NCBI GenBank assembly: GCA_018651745.1
Contig: JABIDL010000032.1
Location: forward strand, 1 to 12,633
Origin: Candidatus Neomarinimicrobiota bacterium
GTDB taxonomy: Bacteria; Fidelibacterota; Marinisomatia; Marinisomatales; TCS55
Direction: 5' to 3'
DNA length: 12,633 nucleotides
The notes below the pieces were generated by a model. It had not been told where the DNA came from. It worked only from the letters and a program-made list of their open reading frames with translations, and made no database searches. Shown here in pieces: positions 10,566 through 12,633 of this stretch. Position 1 is the first letter of the stretch. The number at the start of each line of letters is the position of its first letter. Both the position numbers and the translations under genes were made by a program.

Positions 10566-11273
10566 ATGAAAAACGAGACTCAATACTTCGGAAAGGACTT
10601 GGAAGCAATGTCCTTTGCCTATAATTATCATAAATGGATTCTTGAAGAATTCACCCCATACCTTGGTGCTCATGTAGCAGAAGTGGGGGCAGGAATGGGT
10701 CATTTTTCTGAATTTTTATTAGAAACTCAAATAAATCACCTTACCACATTTGAGCCATCTGAAAATATGTACCCTGTCCTTGAAAATAATTTTGCTCATC
10801 ATAATAACGTAGATACTATTCATGCATTTTTTGAAGACCAATCGCATCAATACAATCAATCGTTTGATTCCATCTGTTACGTAAATGTTCTTGAACATAT
10901 AGAAAAAGATAGAGAAGCCTTAACGCATGCCTATAAAACGCTTCAACAAAATGGGCATATTCTGATCTTTGTACCTGCACTATCATTTTTGTACAGCAAT
11001 TTTGATAAAGCCGTGGGACATTATAGACGGTATTCTAAAAAGGAACTTGTAGATGTGGTTTCAGCAGCAGGATTTTCAATTAAAAAAATCAACTATTTTG
11101 ATATAGCTGGAATTATTCCATGGTATGTTGCTTTCGTATTGTTAAAACAAACTACAACCGAGTCTAATGTTTCTTTGTACGACACTTGGGTTGTCCCAAT
11201 CATGAAAAAAGTAGAACGCATCATACCACCCATCATCGGAAAAAACTTGATTCTTATTGGGCAGAAAGCATAA
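10566..11273 (+). CDS. Class I SAM-dependent methyltransferase, UbiG-like, substrate unknown
   Basis: The 235-residue protein has a Rossmann methyltransferase fold. Motif I for SAM binding is VAEVGAGMGHFSEFLLE (37-53), the acidic residue ending the next strand is in FEPSENM (62-68), and the motif IV region is SICYVNVLEHIEKDREAL (102-119). The second half has DKAVGHYRRYSKKEL (147-161), a pattern I associate with methyltransferases of surface-glycan clusters and small-molecule pathways. A hydrophobic stretch at about 178-194 could touch a membrane but is short and not a clear transmembrane helix. No glycan gene is nearby, so the substrate cannot be named. No Shine-Dalgarno sequence precedes the ATG, and the upstream 65 bases are very AT-rich, with a possible TATTAT -10 at 10526-10531. 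It stands alone between palindromic elements next to an integron-type integrase, so acquisition by transfer is likely. Confidence 0.85.
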   Translation: MKNETQYFGKDLEAMSFAYNYHKWILEEFTPYLGAHVAEVGAGMGHFSEFLLETQINHLTTFEPSENMYPVLENNFAHHNNVDTIHAFFEDQSHQYNQSFDSICYVNVLEHIEKDREALTHAYKTLQQNGHILIFVPALSFLYSNFDKAVGHYRRYSKKELVDVVSAAGFSIKKINYFDIAGIIPWYVAFVLLKQTTTESNVSLYDTWVVPIMKKVERIIPPIIGKNLILIGQKA

Positions 11274-11293: not shown

Positions 11294-11377
11294 TTTAGGT
11301 TGGAATTATTTTGGGAAGTTCGGGATTCCTACTGGAACGATGTTTTAGAATTCCTTGACGAAAATATTGGGGAATAA
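11294..11377 (+). pseudogene. Short coding-like remnant, possible 3' end of a lost gene
   Basis: The frame from 11294 (just after a TAG) to the TAA at 11375-11377 encodes about 27 residues with a protein-like, amphipathic composition rich in W, F, L, E and D (FWEVRDSYWNDVLEFLDE is the core). Only a TTG at 11300 could start it, and no ribosome-binding site is seen. It looks like the C-terminal end of an enzyme whose upstream part is missing. I cannot name the family, and chance is possible at this length. Confidence 0.3.
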
Positions 11378-11393: not shown

Positions 11394-11542
11394 CGCGTGC
11401 ACCCACGACTATCTTAAATGTGGCATGAGAATCCCTTCTCGTGCGCTTGCATTCTTTCATCCACGATTGAAAATGAGCGAGACACAATAGTGGCACAAGC
11501 TTCCCAGCGCATGCAAATCCATGACCAAGGATGGTCGTGGCA
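11394..11542. repeat. Three imperfect palindromic repeat units downstream of intI
   Basis: Three units share an ordered set of words on the plus strand: GCGC(A/T)TGC or CGCGTGC, then A(T/C)CCA(C/T)G, then GTGGCA. The units are 11394-11425, 11443-11495 and 11507-11542. In each, the CCA(C/T) arm can pair with the GTGG arm across a spacer of different length. In the last unit the pairing is long: CCATGACC (11519-11526) with GGTCGTGG (11533-11540). A separate 9-bp hairpin, GCATGAGAA-tccc-TTCTCGTGC (11423-11444), links units one and two. The last unit ends 3 bases before the integrase stop. They are not recognisable attC sites. Confidence 0.5.
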
Positions 11543-11545
11543 CTT

Positions 11546-12499
11546 TTAATTATCCAACGGACTTTTAACGCCGAGCGGACCTTTTTGCATCACGTGGGTG
11601 TAGATCATCGTTGTACGAAGATCTTTATGCCCAAGTAGTTCCTGAACAGTTCTGATATCATAACTATTTTCCAGCAAGTGTGTTGCAAAACTGTGACGCA
11701 GTGTATGGCATGTTACGCGCTTTTCAATTCCGGCTAACTTAACTGATTTCTTCAACGCTCTACTCACGCTTGAATCATGAATATGCCATCGCATTAATTC
11801 ACCTGTTTGCGGATTGTTTGACAGACTGACTGATGGAAAAACAAACTGCCATTTTACTTCCTTACTTGCATTGGTATATTTTCGTCTCAATGCCTTTGGA
11901 AGTATAATGGACCCACTTCCCTTTTTTATATCATTTTCGTGCAGAGTTTTTACTTTTAAGATTTGGTCTTCCAATGGGTTTATACATTTTTCCGGTAACA
12001 GTGTTACGCGATCTTTATCCCCTTTTCCTCTGCGAATAATCAGGCTTTTCTGTGAAAAATCAATATCCTGAATTCTGATATTCAAACATTCTGTTAATCG
12101 TAATCCTGCCCCATAAAGTAAATTACATATAATAGAATGAATACCATGGATATTTGCCAGAACAATCTTGACTTCATCTTGAGAAAGGACAACGGGTATA
12201 TGCTTTGTGCCTTTGGCTATAACAAAATTCTCCGGCTTACCGATATCTTTCTCAAGCACTTTCAAATACAAAAATAAAAGCGCATTTCTAGCCTGGTTTT
12301 GTGTTGATGCGGAAACTGTTCTATCAACAGCAAGATACGTTAGATACTGATTAATTTCTTTTGCACCCATTTCAGAAGGGTGTTTTACATTATGAAATTT
12401 TATAAATCGCTTTATCCAATCAGTATATGTTTTTTCTGTTCTGTAACTATAATTACGAACACGTATGTTGTCCCTAACTCGATTTAATAGTTTGCTCAT
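11546..12499 (-). CDS. intI: Integron integrase (tyrosine recombinase, IntI family)
   Basis: The protein recombines attI and attC sites to insert or excise gene cassettes. At 317 residues it matches IntI length. The N-terminal SAM-like core-binding domain (about 1-85) includes SYRTEKTYTDWIKRFIKFH (18-36). The catalytic set is complete: R134 in LLYGAGLRLTE, K159 in RRGKGDKDR, H265 and R268 in CHTLRHSFATHLLE, H291 in LLGHKD, and nucleophile Y300 in TTMIYTHV. Two features separate IntI from XerC/D: the additional segment LPKALRRKYTNASKEVKWQFVFPS (200-223) and the C-terminal GPLGVKSPLD (307-316). AAGGA lies five bases before the ATG. No frameshift or internal stop is seen, so it should be active. 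The methyltransferase to the left is in the opposite orientation with no attC beside it, so it is not clearly a cassette. Confidence 0.94.
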   Translation of the reverse strand: MSKLLNRVRDNIRVRNYSYRTEKTYTDWIKRFIKFHNVKHPSEMGAKEINQYLTYLAVDRTVSASTQNQARNALLFLYLKVLEKDIGKPENFVIAKGTKHIPVVLSQDEVKIVLANIHGIHSIICNLLYGAGLRLTECLNIRIQDIDFSQKSLIIRRGKGDKDRVTLLPEKCINPLEDQILKVKTLHENDIKKGSGSIILPKALRRKYTNASKEVKWQFVFPSVSLSNNPQTGELMRWHIHDSSVSRALKKSVKLAGIEKRVTCHTLRHSFATHLLENSYDIRTVQELLGHKDLRTTMIYTHVMQKGPLGVKSPLDN

Positions 12500-12633
12500 G
12501 TTAATCCTTGAATTTAAAAGTATCCCCCAGTAGTTTTTCTAGAGGTAATTTAAGTATATATGAAATGAATGTAATGCATAATATTACGCATATAGGAGCA
12601 CTATTTGATGTTTTCGTCAAATATTAACTGTTA
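12500..12633. promoter_or_regulatory. intI upstream region, likely to contain its promoter and part of attI
   Basis: These AT-rich bases lie where attI is normally found, 5' of the integrase gene. They contain an 18-bp near-palindrome with one mismatched pair (12574-12591, arms ATGCATAAT and ATTACGCAT) and a 9-bp hairpin, TATTTGATG-tttt-CGTCAAATA (12602-12623). The final bases are GTTA (12630-12633), the start of a possible GTTRRRY core that the window edge cuts off. A minus-strand TTGACG (12620-12615) could be a -35, but its best -10 (TATATG) is 20 bp away. The exact attI site cannot be placed. Confidence 0.4.

Follow-up and report, generated by a model that had tools for sequence, protein, structure and literature searches.

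A contig from Candidatus Neomarinimicrobiota bacterium ends shortly after an open reading frame resembling an integron integrase. This raises the question of whether the gene belongs to a chromosomal integron and, if so, where the cassette array lies. The window (12,633 nucleotides; JABIDL010000032.1) comprises the entire contig C32 of the host draft genome G000 (1.86 Mb, 95.8% complete). A preliminary description, based on the letters of the window, had read the gene as a complete IntI, placed it beside housekeeping genes rather than a transposon or plasmid, suggested a non-proteobacterial host, and predicted an array beyond the right edge of the window. Features of the locus and related elements on other contigs are collected in Table 1.

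Table 1. Positions of integron features in the window and of related elements on other contigs
Feature	Position	Strand	Evidence
Methyltransferase gene, left flank of integron	10566..11273	+	Pfam Methyltransf_23; gene order in congener G002
51-bp element directly after intI stop	11490..11540	-	near-identical copy after second intI
Copy of 51-bp element after second intI	C3:360-410 (L039:360-410)
intI, complete integron integrase, 317 aa	11546..12499	-	TIGR02249; 2a3v; catalytic residues; tree
Region upstream of intI and left portion of attI	12500..12633	+	alignment with congener G001
attC beside mutL	C2:42368-42500 (L189:2469-2601)	-	covariance model R2; stem scan
26-bp boundary TTTGGGTTACGGTGCTTMATCATTCA, host	C2:42338-42363		follows last attC
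26-bp boundary, congener G002	C65:2543-2568		follows last attC
26-bp boundary, congener G001	C21:118338-118363 and C21:24861-24886		follows last attC

Identification of the integrase

The gene occupies the right end of C32, and its reading frame is uninterrupted throughout. The integron integrase profile TIGR02249 (integrase_gron) matched the protein with 438 bits (E 2.1e-131) over profile positions 1-313 of 315, against a curated cut-off of 265 bits. Its Pfam domains were Phage_integrase and Phage_int_SAM_4. The closest solved structure was 2a3v (V. cholerae IntI4; 297 bits), with an alignment over residues 3-316 that spans the IntI insertion. All catalytic residues were found (R134, K159, H265, R268, H291, and Y300); among 18 aligned IntI proteins of the host order, H265 was nearly invariant and the other five fully so. 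The insertion residues K207, Y208, and W217 (KY...W, 207-217) were invariant in 18 of 18, and XerC and XerD have no such insertion. The GVKSPLD motif is present at the C-terminus. The open reading frame was thus confirmed by sequence as a full-length integron integrase, with every diagnostic feature named in the preliminary description intact.

All tyrosine recombinases have a common fold, and the XerC and XerD models did align to the protein (146-149 bits), as would be the case had a XerC/D-type or phage recombinase been mistaken for IntI. However, these scores fall far under the curated cut-offs of those models (335 and 330 bits), whereas TIGR02249 far exceeded its own, and the IntI insertion is present. 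We built a maximum-likelihood tree of 73 proteins that included the Xer proteins of the genus and left out phage integrases. In this tree, the check that the preliminary description had called for, the window protein grouped with IntI and apart from the Xer proteins of its genus with support of 100/100. We therefore regard a misidentified Xer or phage recombinase as vanishingly improbable.

Within the tree, the window IntI paired with that of congener G001 (100/98), and the two nested in a clade of 11 IntI proteins from the host order (100/88). The sister of this clade was an IntI from Calditrichota (L078, JANQQU010000033; 53% identity), with support of 86/88. Separately, a second IntI lineage in the host order grouped with Auribacterota and Nitrospinota. 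IntI scoring over threshold was found in 12 of 61 sampled genomes of the lineage. Compared with 23 named genomes, host RpsB reached at most 51% identity, and the betaproteobacterial sequence was among the lowest ranked; no 16S rRNA was found in the host assembly. Together with the Calditrichota sister, the RpsB identities make it likely that the host is non-proteobacterial, as first supposed.

Genomic context and insertion locus

The neighbors of intI, named from profile scans for some and from reading of the translations for the others, are the housekeeping genes nrdJ, frr, pyrH, tsf, rpsB, rpsI, rplM, pyrC, pyrB, pyrR, and miaA. Inspection of the window's open reading frames revealed no transposase and no plasmid gene. 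Rfam gave zero matches in the window, promoter-like sites near intI were no more common than in shuffled sequences, and no LexA box was established near the gene. An inverted repeat around intI (11355-11367 with 12608-12620) was considered and dropped, being approximately at chance level for that length.

The methyltransferase ortholog in congener G002 lies approximately 29 bp from mutL with no integron between them. On its other side are miaA, pyrR, pyrB, and pyrC, the same as in the window. This adjacency therefore marks the insertion locus, with G002 representing the empty site. The host mutL is found on a different contig, at the right end of C2, where it is followed by an attC and then by a truncated cassette ORF of at least 120 codons which runs off the contig end. 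The distal end of the array would thus correspond to the mutL end of C2, although this join between C32 and C2 is inferred, since it rests on gene order and not on a spanning contig.

Recent delivery of a mobile integron by a transposon or plasmid would account for the empty site of G002 and for the 51-bp element common to both host intI genes (see below). However, the association with transposons or plasmids that characterizes mobile integrons of the class 1 type was not observed; housekeeping genes lie on both sides. G001 also carries the boundary sequence of the genus at the same mutL locus, the window IntI groups with IntI of its own genus and order, and the best plasmid-borne IntI was at most about 51% identical to it. 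We consider such delivery highly improbable.

attI and the right edge of the window

Because intI reads leftwards, attI and the array were expected to its right. The array is not visible in the window because C32 continues for just 134 bp past the intI start before ending at GTTA (12630-12633). When aligned to the attI region of G001, the right end of C32 was identical at 43 of 60 positions up to the core, which in G001 reads GTTAGAT and is followed by a cassette. The attI core consensus is GTTRRRY, and the host core is cut after four bases by the contig end. Judged by G001, then, C32 stops exactly where the putative attI core begins.

The proposed arrangement consists of intI transcribed leftwards, attI immediately to the right of the intI start, and an array that would extend rightwards from attI to mutL. 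The assembly would have broken exactly at the attI core, with the far array end left on C2. We conclude, with a probability of roughly 0.92, that a sedentary chromosomal integron has its left end in this window and that its array, from attI to mutL, was split by the assembly.

Detection of attC sites

Strict attC regular expressions initially returned zero matches in the host. Because of the degenerate R'', detection instead relied on a stem-based scan and on covariance models. In the stem-based scan, the C2 site scored 32.0, while an equal amount of shuffled sequence yielded a single match, at 31.0. The C2 site is well formed, with 14 stem pairs and two extrahelical bases, and its predicted fold is the imperfect palindrome with extrahelical bases expected of an attC.

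Stem pairing was evaluated across ten attC sites from the host genus, the host order, and one acidobacterium. In the R and L stems, 80% of cells were paired, and 22 cells had changed on both sides. Sliding the partners by 1-3 columns reduced R/L pairing to 30-39%. Single-strand folding of individual attC sites gave weak z-scores (-0.2 to -2.5), so that the comparative evidence is stronger than that from folding single sequences.

A covariance model (R1) was trained on ten attC sites, including host sites and the C2 site among them. With an E threshold of 1, R1 detected attC in 12 of the 17 genomes scanned. No match at this threshold was found in G005, G006, G007, or G050, all of which are without an IntI over the cut-off; G042 carries IntI, yet had no attC match. 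Separately, R1 gave 50 matches in the relative G038, 24 in G010, and 22 in G003, where their spread over many contigs indicates large cassette collections. In G038, an intact intI also lies in frame with an allantoicase gene (PF03561, E 4e-105) within one 687-aa ORF (contig C71, L051:10651-12714), which could represent either a fusion of integrase and allantoicase or the loss of a stop codon.

As the training set of R1 included host sites, seven attC sites from outside the host genus were used to build a second model (R2). Across the whole 1.86-Mb host genome, R2 ranked the C2 site first (63 bits, E 2.4e-11). A site on contig C30, with a degenerate R'', was second (E 0.07 genome-wide), and everything else in the host had E > 1. 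These two sites were the only attC recognized in the host assembly. The search for attC in the host genome, also suggested at the outset, thus found sites at contig ends which synteny places beyond the right edge of the window, supporting the predicted rightward array.

The small number of recognized sites could also indicate an intI without cassettes (an In0 or decaying relic), with the attC at mutL a leftover. Indeed, the miaA-mutL locus of G001 retains only the 3' boundary of an array and a degenerate last site, with no intI. Against this, host C2 has a well-formed attC with a cassette ORF before it that runs off the contig, and the breaks between contigs fall at attI and within attC, as is typical of repeated arrays. 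We regard the relic as quite unlikely and favor an integron with an array that the assembly has split.

Contigs of the host and G002 (ends L189, L213, and L149) were also observed to stop within cassette arrays, some inside attC or the attI core. Contig ends in the host lineage therefore appear to mark hidden arrays.

A probable second integron and shared boundaries

The host carries a second intI, a fragment of 116 codons at the start of contig C3 which adjoins crp and has 64% amino acid identity to the window intI. Host rpsT lies at the right end of C30 and is followed by a 190-aa ORF, the attC, and a thioredoxin-like ORF, past which the contig ends inside another attC-like arm. At the crp locus of G001, these elements occur together: a complete intI, attI, a cassette encoding a GNAT acetyltransferase, attC, HigBA, an ATP-grasp gene, and rpsT. 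A second integron therefore probably lies between crp and rpsT in the host, split over C3 and C30, with the linkage taken from G001. Beside the ATP-grasp gene at this locus, G002 carries a cassette together with two attC sites. The genus therefore appears to keep integrons at two loci, crp-rpsT and miaA/methyltransferase-mutL.

The cassettes on C2 and C30 are tied to the host intI genes by synteny alone; the intact layout is seen in G001 and in G004. The latter, from the same family, has intI and two attC-terminated cassettes on one 162-kb contig, with attC sites that were outside the R1 training set. Host contig C27 carries at its right end a HigA relative (L210:2387-2781), which was considered as a cassette and not counted because no attC was found nearby. 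It shares 77% identity with the integron-adjacent HigA of G001 and lies, together with a truncated remnant of HigB, near the contig end.

The last attC in the host, G002, and G001 is followed by a 26-bp sequence (Table 1). It is present at both G001 loci, no further copy occurs in 61 genomes, and a diverged version is found at host C30. This sequence may represent a genus-specific mark of the distal array end at two loci. The two array ends of G001, one per locus, are 94% identical over 174 bp.

The intI end also has a shared element. The 51 bp that directly follow the intI stop contain a terminator-like stem-loop (11519-11540) and recur after the second intI. The host genome has just these two copies of the element core (up to 3 mismatches); a search of 129 other genomes of the order and of viral contigs found none. 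Despite only 64% identity between the IntI proteins, the common boundaries and 51-bp element suggest duplication or exchange of the platform. It is conceivable, if doubtful, that the integron platform itself was copied within the genome, either by duplication followed by array exchange or by boundary-guided movement of whole integrons.

Discussion

Characterized IntI proteins cut attI at the core GTT and exchange strands with folded bottom-strand attC. By analogy, the substrates of the host IntI would be double-stranded attI and the attC of a circular cassette, folded from its bottom strand, and new cassettes would insert at the attI GTT, next to the integrase. The sequence supports each component of this scheme; we infer the reaction, cassette capture, and cassette expression in the host.

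The locus resembles the superintegron of V. cholerae (IntI4/VchIntIA, 2a3v) in several respects. As in V. cholerae, intI would diverge from the array with the putative attI beside it, attC sites bound small cassette-like ORFs, and the context is housekeeping; toxin-antitoxin genes lie beside the congener's array. The V. cholerae superintegron has hundreds of cassettes, whereas the host assembly displays few. Unlike V. cholerae, the host has two loci in one 1.9-Mb genome and a genus-specific boundary past the last attC. The Calditrichota IntI is the nearest named relative of the host-order clade, although it comes from a different lineage and was compared by its integrase alone.

Many bacterial phyla, as well as archaea, are known to carry integrons (PMC9668308), and those in non-proteobacterial and archaeal MAGs have the same components, likewise split over contigs in drafts (PMC9668308, PMC9024848). 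The authors of IntegronFinder note that draft assemblies split integrons at their similar attC sites, and more than one IntI occurs in 22% of IntI-bearing genomes (PMC9024848). As integrons are already known in many non-proteobacterial phyla, that of the host is real but ordinary in kind. Our analysis adds a well-supported chromosomal integron from an uncultivated lineage. It also demonstrates that synteny, together with a lineage-specific attC model, can place an integron that the assembly has cut. The two loci with common boundaries provide a natural system for how sedentary platforms multiply and decay.
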